The notes under the pieces are model-generated. The model saw nothing but the letters and a program-made list of their open reading frames with translations. It ran no database searches and was not told where the DNA came from. From an uncultured Opitutaceae bacterium (GTDB lineage: Bacteria; Verrucomicrobiota; Verrucomicrobiia; Opitutales; Opitutaceae), in NCBI GenBank assembly GCA_937902925.1, contig CALFNN010000036.1, forward strand, positions 62,001-126,000: a stretch of DNA of 64,000 bases, given 5' to 3'. Of the stretch, positions 23,938 through 33,053 are shown piece after piece (positions within the stretch are counted from its first letter, which is position 1; every line of letters starts with the position of its first letter). A program made the position numbers and the translations under genes.

Positions 23938-24209
23938 CGCCGCCTCGGAGTTGTCGCCGACGCGATCAGGGTGGAGACGAGCGGTCGTGGTGCCGCGACA
24001 GAGGTGATCGCAGTGTCATGATTTCGGCTTTGCGACGTTTTGGCCGCCGAGGGCCGCAATCGGGCGGGTGATTCTCGGGACTGCTTAACGGTGACAGCGT
24101 TTTTAGCGTGGGATTATCCGGCGTCGTTTGTCTCCCTGTGATGGCAGCGACATGGACATGCGTGGAGAACGACTCCGCGCGTTCTCCGCTGCCATTCAAG
24201 GACCCCATC

Positions 24210-25922
24210 ATGGACGAAAACAGCGAACAGATCCTCTCGCGTCGCAGGTGGCTGGGCGTCGTCTCGACGCCGGCACTCGCTGCGGCGTTATTGCCGCAAC
24301 GGATGCTCGCCGCCGAAACGGACGCCTCCGCGGCTGGCGGCCCCGCGGCCGGCGCGCGAATCTACAATGTCCGCGATTTCGGCGCCAGGGGCGACGGCGC
24401 CACCGTCGACACGCCGGCATTGCAGGCCGCGATCGACGCATGCGCGGCCGACGGCGGTGGCACGGTGCTCGTGCCGGCGGGGACCTTTGTCATCGGCACG
24501 ACCCAGCTGAAGAGCAATATCACGCTGCATCTCGCGGCGTCGGCTGCGCTGCTCGGCAGTGGCGACGGCAAGCAATATCACGCGGTCGGCGCGATTCCAC
24601 TGCGCGGCGACTCGACGCTGGGCGACGGCAACTGGGCGTTGCTCTACGCGGTGGAAGCGAAAAACGTCACGATCGAGGGTCCGGGAACGATCGACGGCCA
24701 GGGACATCTGTTCAACAACTATGGGAAGAACGGTGCACCGCCGCCCAGCGGCATCGGTGGCGCGCAACGACCCTACCATCTGCTCTTTTATCGCTGCGAG
24801 AATCTTGTCGTGCGCGATCTCCGCCTCGTGCGTTGTGCGTTTCACAGCATCCGGGTGATCCAGAGCCAGCAGGTGCGGCTGGAGGGCCTCTACATCCACA
24901 ATCGGGTTAATGTGAACAACGATGGCTTCCACTTCATCAGCGCGCAGCACGTGGCCATCAGCAATTGCACGGTGCTTTGCCAGGACGATGCCTGCGCGTT
25001 ATTCGGCAGCTGCCAGTTCGTGACCGTGACGAACTGTGTCTTCAGCACGCGTTGGTCGGTGTTCCGGTTCGGCGGCGGGGTGGTGCGAAATATCGCGGTA
25101 TCGAACTGCCTGATCTACGAGACCTACGGCTGCCCGGTCAAAATCGGCGCCGGCGGCATGCAGCTCGAGAACCTGTCGTTCTCGAACATCATCATGCAGA
25201 ATGTCACCGGCCCGATCGGCATCAACTTCAGCTCGCGCGGTCGCGGGGAAACCGGCGGGGCGGCGGTCGCGGCCGCGTCGTATGTGCGCAATATTTCCTT
25301 CAGCAACATCCGCGCGACGACCGTGCCGGCGCCCGTTGACAGCTACGGCGGCGACATGGCGACGATCGGGCGCATTTACGACGGCGAGCAGCATTCGTGC
25401 ATCACGCTCAACGGCATTGGCGACGCGTTCATCGAGAACGTCACGTTCGACGACGTGCACGTGACGTCGGCCGGCGGCGGCTCGGCCGAACTGGCGGCCA
25501 AGCGGAAAATTCCCGCGACCACCCGGGAGTATTTCGGCGTCTGGGGCGAGGCGCCGCTCGGCCCACCGGCCTATGGCCTGTTTGCGCGGAACGTGCGCGG
25601 ACTCGCGCTCCACAATGTGCGGTTCGAGGTCGCGAGCGCGGACCTTCGCCCCGCGGTGGTGTTCGATAATGTGGAGGATGTGGCGATCAACGGGCTCAGT
25701 GCCCAGGGCAATCCGGCCGGCGAAGCGGTCGTGCGGTTCACGGGCGTGAAGGATGCGTTGCTCACCGCTTCGCGGGTGCTGACGCCGGCGGCGGCGTTCT
25801 TACAGGTCGAAGGGGAGGGCAACGCGGGCATCACGATCGACGGCGGCGACCTGACGAAGGCGGCCGTGCCCGTGACGTTCCGGGATGGCGCCGCGGAAAA
25901 GACGGTGCGGTTGCGGGCTTGA
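24210..25922 (+). CDS. Tat-exported GH28-like (polygalacturonase-type) beta-helix protein
   Basis: The protein is 570 aa. A twin-arginine signal (RRRWLGVV, 11-18, then a hydrophobic stretch) is followed by IYNVRDFGARGDGATVDTPA (51-70), the classic GH28 N-terminus, and a right-handed beta-helix. Catalytic-region motifs are NNDGF (236-240, for NTD) and QDDACALFG (258-266, for DD). The GHG motif appears as GGG (288-290), losing the usual His, and RIK as VKI (310-312). It probably acts on pectin galacturonan or a related uronic-acid polymer. The ATG at 24210 starts the Tat leader. Confidence 0.87.
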   Translation: MDENSEQILSRRRWLGVVSTPALAAALLPQRMLAAETDASAAGGPAAGARIYNVRDFGARGDGATVDTPALQAAIDACAADGGGTVLVPAGTFVIGTTQLKSNITLHLAASAALLGSGDGKQYHAVGAIPLRGDSTLGDGNWALLYAVEAKNVTIEGPGTIDGQGHLFNNYGKNGAPPPSGIGGAQRPYHLLFYRCENLVVRDLRLVRCAFHSIRVIQSQQVRLEGLYIHNRVNVNNDGFHFISAQHVAISNCTVLCQDDACALFGSCQFVTVTNCVFSTRWSVFRFGGGVVRNIAVSNCLIYETYGCPVKIGAGGMQLENLSFSNIIMQNVTGPIGINFSSRGRGETGGAAVAAASYVRNISFSNIRATTVPAPVDSYGGDMATIGRIYDGEQHSCITLNGIGDAFIENVTFDDVHVTSAGGGSAELAAKRKIPATTREYFGVWGEAPLGPPAYGLFARNVRGLALHNVRFEVASADLRPAVVFDNVEDVAINGLSAQGNPAGEAVVRFTGVKDALLTASRVLTPAAAFLQVEGEGNAGITIDGGDLTKAAVPVTFRDGAAEKTVRLRA

Positions 25923-26543: not shown

Positions 26544-28124
26544 TCAGGCCAGCTTCAGCTCCCGCAATGTGGCCCCGACGGCGCTGAGATTTTCCGGGCG
26601 CATCGCGGCGTGGCTTGTCGAGATCACCATGCCGCTGCCGCCCGCGCGGAAAATGGCCTCGACCGCCTCGCGCACGCTTTCCGGCGTGCTGTTCTTCAAC
26701 TGCACATCGATGCCAAGGCCGGGGCAGATTCGGGTCTTCGAACCGGCGACGCCTTCCACCGCGCGTTTCGTTTCGCGATAAACGTAGTCGGCAGAGAAAC
26801 GCTCGAACTTCCCGCGCGGGGTGCCGTTGATCGGTTGTTCCCGCAACTGCGACTGGTAGGTGGCGGCCGATCCGCCGACGATTTCGTCGTAGGATTTTTC
26901 CTTCAGGTCCATCACGGCGTATTCGAAGTCGAGCATCTGCTGGTGGGTCAGGTCTCCGAAGACGTTTTGCGTCATGCTGTCGACGAACGACGTCATCCGC
27001 TCGCCCGCGGGGTTGTCGTAGACCACCGGCTTCAGGAAATCGGCATACTTGGTGTAGGGTGCGTAGTCCTGCTCGGCCCGATAGATCGGGTTAAAGGCGA
27101 TATTGTGCCAGATATGGAAGCCCACCTGGACCGCCGGTCGCACGGATTTGGCCCTGGCGGAAAACTCCCGCTGCATCTCGCGCATGCTCTCGGCCCAGAA
27201 GTTTTCCCAGGTCAACAGTTCGGGATGGCGGAGCAGGATCCGCCAGAATTCCACGAAATATCCGTCGCGCGGGCGTTTGCCGGCGCGGCCGTCCCGCACG
27301 TAGGGCTCCAGGGCGAGGAAGGCTTTTTTAACCCGGTCCAGATCGATGCCCTGTTTCGCCGCCTTGGCGGCGCAGTGCTCGCAAAAGCACGAGGTGTGGC
27401 CGGGGTCGCTCTTCGCGCCGTGATGCCATGCGCCGAGCGCGTTGCCCAGCGGACCCTGGCGTTCGGAACCGCGCTGCAAACCGTCGACATCGTAGGAGCG
27501 AATGTAGTCCTCGATCGAATCGGAGATGAGATTGCGGAAGTAAGGATTGTTCAGGCAGGGCCCGCCCGGATGGCCGCCGGTTCTCCGGCCGTAGAGATCG
27601 ATTTCGTAAAGCTGGTCCATGCCCTTGATTTTCGGGGGCGGACGATTGTCCTCCTCCATCCACGGGAAAACCTTGATGCCCCGCTTCCGGGTCTCGGCGG
27701 TGATCTTTTGCATCGCATCCGGCAGATCGAAATCGCCCGGACTCAGGGCCTGGGGCGCCATCAAAACGTTTCCGTAGTATTGCGGGTGCGCCGTGGCGAA
27801 GTGGCCCGCGGGGTTGGTTGCCCGGTCGAGGCCCGCCCATGACGCCTCGAAAAGATTGGCGTGCAGGAAGAGCGTGTTGACGCTGGCGCGAGCCTGAACG
27901 TCGTCGAAAAATCGCGCGATGCCGTATTGCAGCAGGTAGGAAACCTCCGCTTGAAAACCGATCATGGGCGGCGGCGTCCCGGGTGTTTCCGCCGCGGAGT
28001 TGGCCGCGCGGGCGCTGGTCGCGGTGAAGCCCAGGCCGGTTCCGACGGCGGTCGCCGCCACGGCGGCGGTGCGCACGAATTCCCTCCGGGAAATCGCATT
28101 CTTCTCATTGCTTGGGGTATTCAT
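26544..28124 (-). CDS. Tat-exported putative glycosidase-like TIM-barrel protein
   Basis: The protein is 526 aa. A twin-arginine signal is clear (SRREFVRTAAVAATAVG, RR at 13-14, cleavage near ARAAN). The body has alternating strands and helices with many acidic/aromatic loops (NTLFLHANLFEAS, GIKVFPWMEEDNRP, NPIYRAEQDYAPYTK, ISTSHAAMRPENL) and two Cys pairs (SCFCEHCA). It resembles exported (beta/alpha)8 proteins annotated as putative glycoside hydrolases, but I cannot name the family. Being next to the GH28 gene suggests a carbohydrate role. The start is ATG at 28124. Confidence 0.75.
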   Translation of the reverse strand: MNTPSNEKNAISRREFVRTAAVAATAVGTGLGFTATSARAANSAAETPGTPPPMIGFQAEVSYLLQYGIARFFDDVQARASVNTLFLHANLFEASWAGLDRATNPAGHFATAHPQYYGNVLMAPQALSPGDFDLPDAMQKITAETRKRGIKVFPWMEEDNRPPPKIKGMDQLYEIDLYGRRTGGHPGGPCLNNPYFRNLISDSIEDYIRSYDVDGLQRGSERQGPLGNALGAWHHGAKSDPGHTSCFCEHCAAKAAKQGIDLDRVKKAFLALEPYVRDGRAGKRPRDGYFVEFWRILLRHPELLTWENFWAESMREMQREFSARAKSVRPAVQVGFHIWHNIAFNPIYRAEQDYAPYTKYADFLKPVVYDNPAGERMTSFVDSMTQNVFGDLTHQQMLDFEYAVMDLKEKSYDEIVGGSAATYQSQLREQPINGTPRGKFERFSADYVYRETKRAVEGVAGSKTRICPGLGIDVQLKNSTPESVREAVEAIFRAGGSGMVISTSHAAMRPENLSAVGATLRELKLA

Positions 28125-28280
28125 GGAAAGACCGGCATCGGCGCACCTGCACCGGCATTGGGGATCGCGCAGCCAGACGCACGGTGCCGGCAATGGTTGT
28201 CCGGGTCCACCGCGACACACGCAATCGGTTGGGTGGATTGAATTCCGCCGCCGGGCAGAAACCGGTCGTTGCGCCCGTCG

Positions 28281-30179
28281 CTAGAAACGCAACGCCGCGG
28301 CCGGAGCCGCCCGTGCGGCAACCAGCGGCGGGCGGTGGAGACTCTCCGATGAAACGGAGAGGCGTTTCCAGCGGGCGACCTTCGCATGAAAAAAGCCGCA
28401 CTCGCGGAAAGCGCGTTCGATGCGGCCTTCCTGCCGGAGAATCGCGATGCCGCGGTCGAGTGCTGGGACGAGGACGTCGGCGTGTGGCGAGTGCTTCGAA
28501 ACGATCCACGAACGACTGCCGGGGAGCGGAACCTTGCACTGGGGCACGGGGATGAGGCGGATGCCGTCGTGCTCGACCGCCATGTCGGCCGAACTCGCAA
28601 ACTCCAGCAGCGTGAAGTCGGCGCGTCCGTCGCGCAGGAGCTGGAACAGCTTTTCCGTCCGGCTGGCCTTCTCGATCCGCTTCAGGCCCATCTGGTCGAG
28701 CAACTGCAAATCGACCGGCCAGTTGAAGACGGTGGCGCCCACCAGCCCGGCCAGCGACTCGGACAGGTTGGTTTGCAGCACGCGCTGGTTGCCGGGCAGC
28801 ACGTAAAGGCCCTTCTCGAATTCGCCATTTTGGATGACCGGCCGCGAGGAGTGCAAAGCCTCGGCGTTGCGCGCGATTTCCGAATCCCAGACGGTTTCGG
28901 CCGTGAGATCGTTGTAGCCCTGCTGAACTTCGACCACGGCGCGCCCGTGATTCGGGTGGATGGACAATTCGTAGTCGAAATCGAGGCCGCCAGCCGCAAG
29001 CGCCTGTAATTGAAGCACCAGATCCACGGTGGGACGGTTTGCATGGGGCCCGTCGAAACGGTCAATCGCGACGGCCGGTGTCTGCTGGGTCCACTTGGCC
29101 AGCGAATCCGCGACGAGCGTGCTGACGGCGATACGCAACTTGAGACGGCCATCGGTCGCCGCCTCCGCCCCGGCGCCGCCGCGTTGCACCCGCAGCAAAC
29201 GGCGAAGATCGGCCAGCAGGGCATCGATGGCCTGTGACTCCCCCGTCATCTGCTGGGCGGCACTGGCGGAATGATCCGCGTTGGCGACCGTGTGCTGGAC
29301 GACTTTCTCGATCTCGATGACGGCAATGTTGAGCTGGTCGAGGCCGCGGGCCTGCTCGGCCGAGGCCTGGGCGATCTCCGAAACAAGGCCGCTCGATTTC
29401 GTGACGCGGCCGTTGACATCCTCGAACTGCCGGCTCGTCTCGCTGACCACGGTGGTGGCCTGCGCGACATGGCGGGCGGTTTCCTCGAGCAATCCAGCGG
29501 TGTCGCGCGCGGCCTCGGCGGCGTGCCGGGCCAGCGTGCGGACCTCCTCGGCGACGACGGCAAAGCTGGCGCCGTGCTCGCCGGCGCGGGCGGCCTCGAT
29601 GGCGGCGTTGAGCGCGAGAATGTTGGTCTGGAAGGCAATTTCGTCGATCGTCTTGATGATCTTGGAGGTCGCGGCGCTCTGGCGTTGGATGGCCTCGATC
29701 GCGGTCAACAAGGTGTGCATCGATGCATCGGCTTGCGTCATGGTCGTGCGCGTCTCCTGCATGAGGCGGTCGGTCTCGCGCGTGTTGTCCGCATTGCGTT
29801 GTGTCATCGAAGCGAGCTCCTCGACGGTGGAGGCAATCTCCTCGATGCTGGCGGCCTCGCGCGAGGTGACGGTGGCGAGCGCATCGGCATCGCGCGTGAC
29901 TTGCGAGGCATGGGAGGCGATCCGCTCGGAACGATCGGTCAGGGCATCGATCTTTTCCGCCAGCGGCCGGGTCTGACGAAGCCGCAGGAAATGAGACAAG
30001 GTGAAACCGAACCCGGTGACGAAGGCGCCGCCGACGGCGAGCTGCACCCAGGGAATGCGACCGGCGTCGAACCCGCGATGGTCGACAAGGATCGCCACGG
30101 CGCCCAGAACGAGCAGCAATGAACCCGCGGCGAACATCGCCGGCTTTCGATTCATGGGGAAAGACGTGGGAGCATTCAT
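28281..30179 (-). CDS. Methyl-accepting chemotaxis protein with C-terminal solute-binding-like domain
   Basis: The protein is 632 aa. Two transmembrane segments lie at about 14-32 and 44-65 with only a short loop between them. The MCP signalling domain follows (about 80-330), with the hairpin tip [20 protein letters not shown] (179-198) and [18 protein letters not shown]. From about 345 to 605 a further domain begins at [11 protein letters not shown] and resembles family-3 solute-binding proteins ([29 protein letters not shown]). By this topology that domain would be cytoplasmic, which is unusual. An in-frame ATG at 30155 is an alternative start. A sigma-28-type promoter lies just upstream. 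Confidence 0.9.
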
Positions 30180-30248: not shown

Positions 30249-30440
30249 GCCGGCATAAGGAGGCATCCCAGCCGTCACGACCCCGGGGGTGGGAAGACAC
30301 TTGCCGGGCGCGGGGCAAATCAGCCAGAACGGACGGCTTTACGTGGGGTCGGTGTCCAAAGAACGTCGCCTCGTTCGTGAGCTATGGAAGACCATCGCGA
30401 CTCGCCGCGCGTTTCAATTCATTCCCCCTCCACCCGAATC

Positions 30441-30959
30441 ATGAGCTCAAAACCAACCGTCGGGAACGACACGTCCGTGCAGCCAGCCGCCGACTGTTCC
30501 GCATCGGACCGCGAACTCTCGCTGACCCGCATCATCGCGGCCTCCCGGGAGAAGCTCTTTCGGGCGTGGACCGAGCCGGAACTCCTTAAGCAGTGGTTCA
30601 CGCCGCGCCCTTGGACAACGCCGATCGTGGAAGTCGACGTGCGGTCCGGCGGAGCGAACCTGATCGTCATGCGCGGACCGGAGGGCAACGAGTTTCCCAA
30701 TCGCGGGGTCTATCTGGAGGTCGTGCCCAACGAGCGGCTGGTATTCACCGACGCCTACACGAAGGCGTGGGAGCCCTCGGCCAAGCCATTCATGACAGTA
30801 GTGCTGACGTTTGAAGATGCAGGTCCGGGCAAGACCCGGTATACCGCGCGGGTGCAGCACTGGACGTCCGCCGACCGGGAGGCACACGAGAAAATGGGCT
30901 TTCACGCGGGATGGGGCAAAGCCACCGATCAACTGGAAGCCCTTGTCGGCAAACTGTAA
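30441..30959 (+). CDS. SRPBCC / AHSA1-type protein
   Basis: The protein is 172 aa. The pattern ELSLTRIIAASREKLFRAWTEPELLKQWFTP is the standard start of an AHSA1 (activator of Hsp90 ATPase homologue-like) START fold, followed by VEVDVRSGGANLIVMRG and a C-terminal helix GWGKATDQLEAL. The ATG at 30441 is preferred over an upstream ATG at 30384. It is the first of four small genes in one direction (SRPBCC, VOC, YCII, VOC). Ligand unknown. Confidence 0.88.
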   Translation: MSSKPTVGNDTSVQPAADCSASDRELSLTRIIAASREKLFRAWTEPELLKQWFTPRPWTTPIVEVDVRSGGANLIVMRGPEGNEFPNRGVYLEVVPNERLVFTDAYTKAWEPSAKPFMTVVLTFEDAGPGKTRYTARVQHWTSADREAHEKMGFHAGWGKATDQLEALVGKL

Positions 30960-30971
30960 TCCATTGTCCCC

Positions 30972-31457
30972 GTGAAAAGGATCACTCCGTTCCTGTGGTT
31001 CGATGACAATGCCGAGGACGCAGCGAAATTCTACACCTCGATCTTCAAGAAATCGAAGATCACGAAGATCGCGCGTTATGGTGACGCAGGGTCGGACGTC
31101 ACGGGGCGGCCGGCCGGGTCGGTCATGACCGTGGCTTTCGTGCTCGACGGCCAGCATTTCACGGCGCTGAACGGCGGGCCGGTTTTTCAGTTCAACGAGG
31201 CGGTTTCCTTTGTCGTCGATTGCGCGACCCAGGAGGAGATCGACTATTATTGGAAGCGACTCTCGAAGGGCGGGAAAACCAGCCGATGCGGCTGGTTGAA
31301 GGACAAGTTCGGAGTGTCCTGGCAGATTGTCCCCCAAGTTCTCGGCGATTTAATGAGTTCCAAGGATTCCGCGAAGGCCGAACGGGTCATGAGCGCGCTG
31401 CTCAAGATGACCAAGCTCGACATCAAGCGCCTCCAGCTGGCGGCGGTGAAGAAGTAG
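30972..31457 (+). CDS. VOC-superfamily protein, PhnB / 3-demethylubiquinone-methyltransferase-like
   Basis: The protein is 161 aa and starts at GTG. The family signature is ITPFLWFDDNAEDAAKFYTS at the N-terminus and VSFVVDCATQEEIDYYW in the second half, then CGWLKDKFGVSWQIVP. The 'methyltransferase' label common in databases is misleading; this is a glyoxalase-fold protein. It lies 12 bases after the SRPBCC gene, so co-transcription is likely. Confidence 0.88.
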   Translation: MKRITPFLWFDDNAEDAAKFYTSIFKKSKITKIARYGDAGSDVTGRPAGSVMTVAFVLDGQHFTALNGGPVFQFNEAVSFVVDCATQEEIDYYWKRLSKGGKTSRCGWLKDKFGVSWQIVPQVLGDLMSSKDSAKAERVMSALLKMTKLDIKRLQLAAVKK

Positions 31458-31552
31458 CGGTCGAGGCCGGCAGAGCTATCGGATGATCGGCGATGCGTTT
31501 TGTCCTGCTGCATCGAATCCGTTCGTCATAGGATCAATAACCATCCCCGACC

Positions 31553-31921
31553 ATGACCGAATCATCCGACAAATCTCAGTTCCTCCTGCTCCTCCATCAG
31601 CCCAATACCGGGGTCGGTCCGACGCCGGAGGAGCTGAAGCAGATCATGGCCCGTTTTAAGATCTGGATGGACGGTTTGACGGCGAAAGGCCTCGTTCTCG
31701 GGACGAACGGGTTGGACGTCGGTGGCAAAATTCTCCGTGGCCCGCGCGGGGCGTCGATCACCGACGGACCCTTCGCGGAATCGAAGGAAATCGTCGGTGG
31801 CTATGTCCTTATCACGGCGGACAATTTGGATCACGCAGTCGAATGCGCCCGCGACTGCCCCGGGCTGGACTACCGCATGGCGGTTGAAGTCCGGCCGGTC
31901 ATCAAGCGGCGCGAACCATAA
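31553..31921 (+). CDS. YCII-related (DGPF-type) protein
   Basis: The protein is 122 aa. It has FLLLLHQPN near the start, the central ITDGPFAESKEIVGGYVLI (DGPF motif at about 71-74) and ALDHAVECAR-like helix before PGLDYRMAVEVRPV. YCII proteins are ferredoxin-like and act in an unknown detoxification or signalling role; they are often encoded beside ECF sigma factors, absent here. It is the third gene of the small cluster. Confidence 0.9.
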   Translation: MTESSDKSQFLLLLHQPNTGVGPTPEELKQIMARFKIWMDGLTAKGLVLGTNGLDVGGKILRGPRGASITDGPFAESKEIVGGYVLITADNLDHAVECARDCPGLDYRMAVEVRPVIKRREP

Positions 31922-31948
31922 CGCTCAAAAACTGGAGATCACCCCGTC

Positions 31949-32317
31949 ATGCCCAACCCGTTTGTTCACGTTGAACTCAACACCACGAGCCTGCCCAAGG
32001 CGAAAGCCTTCTATTCGAAACTGTTCGCCTGGAAATTGACCGAACTCCCCATGCCGACTCCTGGCGGCGCCTACACGATGATCGATGTCGGCGAGGGCAC
32101 CGGCGGCGGCATGATGAAACAGATGTGTCCCGGCGCCCCGTCGGCATGGCTGCCTTACGTGCAGGTGAAGGATATCGATGCGGCGACGAAAAAGGCGAAG
32201 AAGCTTCGGGCGAAAATCATGAAGGACGTTACCGAGGTCGAGGGCATGGGCTGGCTCAGCATCATCGTCGATCCCACCGGCGCCGTCCTCGGACTGTGGG
32301 AACCGAAGGGCGAGTAG
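31949..32317 (+). CDS. VOC-superfamily (glyoxalase-fold) protein
   Basis: The protein is 122 aa with a single VOC module: FVHVELNTTSLPKAKAFYSK, WLPYVQVKDIDAATKKAKKL and VDPTGAVLGLWEP. The metal-site residues are partly retained (His7, late Glu). It is separated by 27 bases from the YCII gene and ends the cluster. Confidence 0.88.
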   Translation: MPNPFVHVELNTTSLPKAKAFYSKLFAWKLTELPMPTPGGAYTMIDVGEGTGGGMMKQMCPGAPSAWLPYVQVKDIDAATKKAKKLRAKIMKDVTEVEGMGWLSIIVDPTGAVLGLWEPKGE

Positions 32318-32594
32318 GGAAGGCCACGTCGCCGGCAGTTGGCGCCCTCGACGCCGGTGGAATGGAATCGCCGCACTGCGCCGGAAGGCTGGCGCTGGAG
32401 GATTTACCTCGCGCGCGCTAATCGCTTCTCCCCATTGCGGGAATTCGAAAATGGGGGCAGAGTCCGTTCAAGGAGAATGGAGTCATGTTGGCTGCGAATA
32501 TTCTCGGGCATTCACGACGGGGCGAGCGCCGGGTGAGTTTCCTGTGCCCGGCGAAGGATTCGATACGGTCGGGCGAGCGTTAGCATTCCCGGCG

Positions 32595-33053
32595 ATGAAT
32601 CCTGTTTGCGAAGATCCGCGCCTGATGCACGCCGTTCTGCGTGAACGACCCGAGACTGGAAAACGCGTTCTGGTCGCCGCCGGAGATTCCGACCTGCGTC
32701 GAATGGTGATGGCTTCGATGGAGCCGGCCGGTCATCGCGTCGACGCCGCGGAGGACGGCGAGGCCGCGTGGAAGGCGCTGCTCGCCAATGTCTATGACTT
32801 GATGATCACCGACCACATCATGCCGAAGGCTTCCGGTCTGGCGTTGGTGCGACGGATGCGGGTGGCGGAGATCGTGCTGCCGGTCATCGTCGCCTCCGAA
32901 ACGCTCGATGCCACGGACGCGCTGAGGTTGAGCCACGATCCGTGGGCGCGGGTCGATGCGTGTGTCCATAAGCCGGTCACGGCGGCGGAACTGCTGGAGG
33001 CGGTGCGGGGCGTCTTCGCCGACTTGCCGCCGGTGTCGCACGCGGGGGAGTAG
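32595..33053 (+). CDS. Receiver-domain protein with altered acidic pocket
   Basis: The protein is 152 aa. A receiver fold covers residues about 24-145: phospho-acceptor Asp73 in LMITDHIMP, Ser101 in VIVASET and Lys126 in CVHKPVT. The usual pair of acidic residues after the first strand (as in LVVDDE) is replaced by Ala29-Gly30 (VLVAAGDSD), with Asp31 next. Magnesium binding and phosphorylation may therefore be weakened. No output domain is present. The start ATG is at 32595. Confidence 0.8.
   Translation: MNPVCEDPRLMHAVLRERPETGKRVLVAAGDSDLRRMVMASMEPAGHRVDAAEDGEAAWKALLANVYDLMITDHIMPKASGLALVRRMRVAEIVLPVIVASETLDATDALRLSHDPWARVDACVHKPVTAAELLEAVRGVFADLPPVSHAGE

Follow-up and report, generated by a model that had tools for sequence, protein, structure and literature searches.

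Gene location and domain order

The gene described here lies at 28281..30179 on the minus strand of the window, by which we mean the whole 64,000-nucleotide stretch of Opitutaceae DNA under study, and encodes a chemoreceptor of 632 amino acids (ATG at 30179, stop at 28283-28281). A first-pass annotation of the same DNA had given this position and left the strand unstated; the gene was found on the minus strand. The plus strand over 28281-30179 was interrupted by stops in the one frame tried. A search of the source genome with the receptor returned a 100% match in contig C36, where the open frame extends over 646 residues and thus leaves room for a start no more than 14 residues further upstream.

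Membrane segments were located by a hydropathy scan (Kyte-Doolittle, 19-residue mean, cut-off 1.0). TM1 comprises residues 14-32 (30084..30140, minus strand, as for all features below; mean 2.54) and overlaps a model helix at 14-34, a region of low model confidence. By hydropathy and by comparison with a related receptor from another genome (G003, see below), it is followed by a periplasmic loop at residues 33-46 (30042..30083), which at 14 residues is too small for a ligand domain, and then by TM2 (residues 47-65; 29985..30041; mean 1.45). TM2 runs unbroken into the signalling helix (model helix 43-199), and HAMP was absent from the Pfam scan of the receptor. The MCP antiparallel hairpin, as placed by Pfam and the full-length model, spans residues 66-329 (29193..29984). 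A linker (residues 330-345; 29145..29192) has a pLDDT under 50 at 330-340 and is identical to G003 at 2 of 13 positions over 333-345. It leads to the predicted C-terminal family-3 solute-binding-like domain of type II PBP fold (residues 346-608; 28356..29144), which was delimited by modelling, Foldseek, VIA-align and relatives. The protein ends in a short variable tail (residues 609-632; 28284..28355) of low pLDDT with 8 of 23 residues identical to G003. Note that the tail ends in AAPAAALRF; no match to the consensus of the CheR/CheB pentapeptide was seen in it by eye.

MCPsignal, at residues 141-293, was the sole Pfam domain above cut-off in the 632-residue receptor (131.2 bits against a gathering cut-off of 34.6; E 4.6e-38). 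A DUF948 match inside the hairpin remained under the Pfam cut-off. In the full-length model, the hairpin consists of helices extending to residue 199 and from 206 to 329, connected by a turn at 200-205. Thus, the first-pass description of two N-terminal membrane segments with a tiny loop, followed by an MCP hairpin, was borne out. The hairpin shares 36-43% identity with those of six of the ten paralogues in the same genome, and its length is gap-free relative to these ordinary receptors (alignment columns 103-379, comprising the window protein, G003 and the six paralogues). Methylation sites were read by eye against what we take to be the consensus: the N-terminal EE pairs are retained, one C-terminal EE pair of the paralogues is replaced by DH in the window protein and EH in G003, and the next pair is QQ.

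Fold of the C-terminal domain

The C-terminal domain (residues 339-615) was modelled with AlphaFold2 from a 31-row alignment of relatives, resulting in a pLDDT of 93.8 and a pTM of 0.89. Foldseek comparison of this model with the PDB returned 748 matches at E up to 0.001 (best E 2.9e-11), headed by glutamine-binding proteins, GlnPQ binding domains, GluR0 and BvgS VFT2. With VIA-align, the domain matched YtmK (2o1m; Z 16.5, rmsd 3.4, 218 aligned), GlnPQ SBD1 (4la9; Z 15.8, rmsd 4.3, 214 aligned) and GluR0 (1ii5; Z 15.6, rmsd 3.8, 212 aligned), and the best 50 rows were mostly family-3 binding proteins or glutamate-receptor ligand cores. Identity of the window domain to the solved chains among the VIA-align matches listed was 10-18%. 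The modelled domain is a family-3 solute-binding fold (type II, GlnBP/GluR0-like). It had been proposed from the sequence that about 260 C-terminal residues resemble a family-3 solute-binding protein, with an unrelated predicted fold named as the outcome that would speak against it; AlphaFold2, Foldseek and VIA-align agreed on the resemblance, and no unrelated fold was found.

The window domain by itself gave no Pfam match to SBP_bac_3 (PF00497), the gathering score not being reached, and no NCBIfam match was obtained for the C-terminal domain alone. In the Pfam scan, SBP_bac_3 was touched weakly by 7 of the 32 family rows (best E 0.002). When the domain profile was compared by hhalign with a profile of six SBP_bac_3-matching proteins, five of them above the SBP_bac_3 cut-off, the two were linked at 98.8% and E 5.3e-17. 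Thus, of the profile search suggested earlier, the direct match failed and the remote profile-profile link held. By that family's own cut-off the window domain is not a PF00497 member.

Sequence searches of the PDB gave candidates that were set aside. The best hits of the single sequence (E 0.93) and of a 3-row profile (E 0.13) were taken as chance, and a 32-row profile returned a nuclear pore protein at best (E 0.04) and SocA, a binding protein, at E 0.56. A viral fold search with the domain gave 8 matches at E up to 0.001, several of them named binding-protein-like, and added nothing.

Topology of the receptor

The full-length receptor was modelled as a monomer from a 29-row alignment (pLDDT 79.7, pTM 0.50). 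The model shows a helix at 14-34, a helix at 43-199, a turn, a helix at 206-329, a low-confidence stretch at 330-340 and the binding fold from residue 346. A third hydropathy peak (476-494, mean 1.24) falls on a strand and a helix inside the C-terminal fold. Between the hairpin and this domain, neither hydropathy nor the full-length model indicated a further membrane segment. Because the hairpin must be cytosolic to meet CheA and no membrane segment intervenes, the C-terminal domain should be cytosolic, as the first-pass annotation had argued; the third membrane segment that it named as capable of placing the domain outside was not found, and the model consists of one hairpin, a linker and the domain. 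The receptor fits the layout of chemoreceptors with a C-terminal ligand domain, in which a folded sensor-type domain, here predicted to be cytosolic, stands behind the hairpin. It is not a solute-binding protein in the strict sense of an exported, separate protein, the domain being fused behind a cytosolic hairpin.

A second fused receptor and the pattern of conservation

A second fused receptor was found in G003, a single-contig genome of 5,957,605 bases from another genus of Opitutaceae. Its frame was listed as 717 residues from a TTG, and the ATG version of 681 residues was used. This receptor has membrane segments at 18-36 and 92-110, followed by MCPsignal and the C-terminal domain; two further hydropathy peaks of 1.04 fall inside the hairpin.

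Identity between the window protein and the G003 receptor is 65% in the hairpin (172/263), with 37 of 41 residues identical at 175-215, and 57% in the binding domain (149/263). The membrane region is 34% identical (20/59), and the loop between the membrane segments measures 14 residues in the window protein and about 55 in G003. Nei-Gojobori estimates, rough since dS is high, were dN 0.38 and dS 1.61 for the binding domain and dN 0.25 and dS 1.10 for the hairpin; in the membrane region (dN 0.67, dS 2.68), dS is near saturation. By these rough dN/dS values, both the binding domain and the hairpin are under purifying selection. Conservation thus falls on the output and C-terminal domains and not on the extracytoplasmic part. 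Because the signalling and binding domains are conserved whereas the loop and membrane segments are not, the comparison points to the C-terminal domain as the sensor, in line with the sensory role predicted for it in the earlier annotation.

Distribution and probable origin of the domain

The fusion was present in 2 of 57 relatives, in 2 of 288 sampled genomes of the phylum, in 2 of 200 genomes of another sample and in 2 of 252 genomes of the family, always the source genome and G003. The proposed survey of this domain order across genomes thus revealed a rare fusion, found in two genera of one family. Within the source genome, the C-terminal part matched only itself. A scan of viral contigs gave no relative, and a plasmid search with the whole protein (1420 records, 3211 places) gave no place covering 80% and no fusion.

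Outside the phylum, the genome-contig scan yielded one relative, a separate 285-residue protein of Cognaticolwellia aestuarii (L011). In the order around this species, 36 of 394 genomes matched, 34 of them strongly. All 44 strong places of this sample, with E values of 1.4e-39 or lower, fall in frames of 282-337 residues; the frames of three weak ones measure 288, 252 and 699 residues. The long frame in G409 (688 aa; 699-residue open frame) was considered as another fusion and rejected: by eye it is exported, with two solute-binding-like parts and no MCP hairpin. In a sample of the phylum Pseudomonadota, 18 of 398 genomes matched, with 11 strong places (frames of 282-337 residues, 7 already in the order sample) and 11 weak places (frames of 266-400 residues). 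A stand-alone relative is also carried by a plasmid of Catenovulum adriaticum, where it is annotated as 'hypothetical protein'. The window domain is 39% identical to the Cognaticolwellia aestuarii protein and 30% identical to that of Catenovulum adriaticum. The N-termini of 34 stand-alone proteins resemble export signals: 31 exceed a 12-residue hydropathy cut-off of 2.0 within the first 60 residues, and the other three score 1.94, 1.77 and 1.56. This Pseudomonadota family (L011, L016-L043, L054-L057) is widespread, with export-signal-bearing, solute-binding-like proteins of about 290 residues.

Among 36 domains placed in a tree, the two from fused receptors formed one clade (support 100/99). 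The proteins of Cognaticolwellia and G533 were its nearest neighbours, at moderate support (86/68); several long branches leave the deeper order unsure. The simplest history would be that, within Opitutaceae, an MCP acquired an exported binding protein at its C-terminus.

The neighbourhoods of 19 stand-alone relatives were surveyed with a longest-frame script, which gave 76 frames (74 scanned, two of 92 aa omitted). No shared transporter partner stood out among 25 of 72 families. The neighbours included two FtsX/MacB-type permeases, two proteins with MCPsignal and two with GGDEF.

Chemotaxis machinery and neighbouring genes

Besides this receptor, the source genome contains ten MCP matches and six CheW-domain matches, two of the latter in frames compatible with CheA (725 and 1063 aa). 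Two of three CheR matches were above cut-off, and from one FliG match we infer that a flagellum is present. Note that one CheR domain (G000:C82, 37238-37807) is located inside a 1317-residue open frame, and a larger CheR fusion is possible. One paralogous receptor (L004 742-2934, G000:C31) combines 4HB_MCP_1 and MCPsignal with a C-terminal CZB zinc-binding domain; thus, the organism also uses a known kind of C-terminal sensor. The contig of this paralogue holds two more MCP matches and a CheW match.

Near the receptor in the window are a glycosyl hydrolase of family 28 (pectin-type; 24108-25922, plus strand) and a gene at 26544-28220 (minus strand) with a weak GHL10 match below cut-off (E 0.00065); both products have a Tat-like N-terminus by eye. 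The latter gene follows the receptor, its likely ATG about 150 bases beyond the receptor stop, and the two may share one transcript. On the other side, 30384-32317 (plus strand) holds four small genes (AHSA1-type, 3-dmu-9_3-mt, YCII-related and glyoxalase-like), and a response regulator domain protein is encoded at 32451-33053 (plus strand), 2.3 kb from the receptor and on the other strand.

In G003, a response regulator gene (L094 10201-10740) lies 197 bases behind the receptor gene. The surroundings (L094 6651-7916 and 10769-12931, both minus strand) include a Peripla_BP_4/LacI-type protein, whose start is 41 bases from the receptor on the opposite strand, and a GH97 behind the receptor, as well as a beta-helix protein. 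Carbohydrate genes thus flank both receptors, in families that differ between the window and G003, and a link to pectin or sugar is a weak lead.

Putative ligand

Ten columns were invariant over 31 family rows, both fused rows included, among them W487, D490, F527 and R556; R382 is arginine in 30 of the 31 rows. In a remote alignment, the residue that we take to be the carboxylate-binding arginine of family 3 corresponds to R437 in the window protein and to glutamate in G003. The commonest residues of this column in the 31 rows are D (8), A (6), S (5), E (3), Q (2) and R (1). The position of E526 of the fused forms, placed by eye near what is presumably the ammonium-binding acid of family 3, is glutamate in 8 of 31 rows and proline in 20. 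Because the aligned arginine is not conserved and the position of E526 is mostly proline elsewhere, a standard amino acid is not predicted as the ligand from these alignments, an amino acid staying as one option. The published trend of the solute-binding family is towards amino acids (PMC9602780). The domain would probably bind a small polar metabolite, perhaps in a non-standard way; should the family trend apply, this would resemble an amino acid.

Proposed mechanism and alternative explanations

We consider it fairly probable that the protein is a membrane-anchored chemoreceptor whose predicted sensor is a captured solute-binding domain of periplasmic type residing in the cytosol. Two membrane helices would hold the receptor, and the MCP hairpin would reach to the conserved tip, the contact site of MCPs for CheA and CheW, before returning toward the membrane-proximal end. 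There, a short flexible linker would carry the two-lobed binding domain. In the model, about 134 residues separate the end of TM2 from the tip and about 124 the tip from the helix end; given these near-equal lengths, the domain would be suspended close to the cytosolic face of the inner membrane, next to the adaptation helices. The clamshell would close on a small molecule of the cytosol, and closure would alter the packing of the returning helix at the bundle end where HAMP would act, thereby changing CheA activity at the tip. The low-confidence linker suggests loose coupling, possibly via domain dimerisation or bundle contact. Note that the full-length model is a monomer of moderate confidence and does not predict the placement of the domain against the bundle. 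The cell would then steer by the internal level of the putative ligand. We give an even chance to the reading that a captured nutrient-binding domain of an exported family reads the cytosolic ligand pool, a form of metabolite taxis by direct binding in which compounds already imported would guide the bacterium.

Several other explanations were weighed. That two genes were joined by an assembly or frame artefact might be suspected from the draft state of the genome (105 contigs), yet the frame is uninterrupted in the genome and an assembly join is unlikely because the single-contig genome G003, of another genus, shows the same domain order; we regard an artefact as extremely improbable. It is also very unlikely that the C-terminal domain lies outside the membrane like ordinary solute-binding proteins. 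The stand-alone relatives examined do look exported, but the receptor has only two membrane segments, both ahead of a hairpin that must be cytosolic for reaching CheA, and the linker at 330-345 is short and not hydrophobic.

The two other readings accept a cytosolic domain and differ in what it does. The domain may no longer bind a ligand and may instead serve to dock or localise the receptor at a partner protein, the membrane or a pole, with input from elsewhere, for example membrane state or neighbouring array receptors. This would be in keeping with the lack of conservation at the aligned family-3 arginine and has a parallel in the C-terminus of H. pylori TlpD, reported to be needed for polar localisation and function (PMC13001251). 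However, the residues that do not vary in the exported relatives are retained in the fused forms, and conservation is higher in the domain than in the membrane region; we consider a docking or localisation role without ligand binding unlikely. Alternatively, the domain could bind a ligand and yet tune adaptation or array packing (for example near CheR/CheB), the primary signal coming from the membrane part or from another receptor in a mixed trimer. Its position directly behind the returning helix with the second adaptation region would suit such a role, and the PilZ domain of Azospirillum Tlp1 is described as modulating oxygen sensitivity (PMC13401364). The loop, only 14 residues long and of different length in the orthologue, argues against it, as no other ligand site is evident, making tuning as the main function distinctly improbable. 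We favour direct sensing of a cytosolic ligand by the C-terminal domain.

If correct, this would represent a compartment switch for an exported binding-protein family. A cytosolic solute-binding domain at the far end of a receptor without HAMP would also offer a compact test of how C-terminal input controls CheA. The usual explanation of metabolism-dependent taxis is that redox state or energy is sensed; to our knowledge, few receptors bind a cytosolic metabolite directly.

Comparison with known systems

MCPs whose ligand domain stands at the C-terminus are already on record as a subfamily, so far poorly characterised; at least 17 Pfam domain types occur in it, most often CZB (PMC7390727). The C-terminal PilZ domain of Cbp1, which binds c-di-GMP with a KD of 14.94 uM, offers a precedent, and C-terminal PilZ is cited there for 52 of 20681 receptors (PMC6454048); a hemerythrin domain occupies this position in the DcrH receptor (PMC13401364). 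The suggestion in the first-pass annotation of an undescribed mechanism was thus overstated. Among the open-licence papers listed by the literature searches, none dealt with a cytosolic family-3 domain on an MCP. C-terminal sensors on MCPs being known, what may be new, within the scope of those searches, is a family-3 type domain in this position.

Like the CZB receptors, Cbp1, Tlp1 and DcrH, the window receptor has a sensor domain behind the signalling hairpin. In contrast to the CZB, PilZ and hemerythrin receptors, this domain is predicted to be a two-lobed solute-binding fold of 263 residues, from a family otherwise consisting of separate exported proteins. The modelled fold is that of SBP_bac_3 proteins and GluR0-type domains (YtmK, GlnPQ SBD1, GluR0). 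Unlike PF00497 proteins, however, the window domain has no Pfam match, shows no conservation among its relatives at the arginine position as placed by the remote alignment, is predicted to be cytosolic and is fused to an MCP. Most conserved residues are common to it and the stand-alone Pseudomonadota relatives (L011, Catenovulum adriaticum), whereas the latter are separately encoded and begin with sequence resembling an export signal. According to PMC9602780, binding-protein profiles also match certain sensor domains that belong to cytosolic systems. A parallel is offered by receptors with periplasmic Venus-flytrap or SBP_bac_3 domains, namely BvgS (PMC5829827) and the arginine-linked RmcA (PMC8846402): there too, as predicted here, the cytosolic signalling module is under the control of a domain of family-3 type, but that domain is periplasmic, unlike the one predicted for the window receptor.
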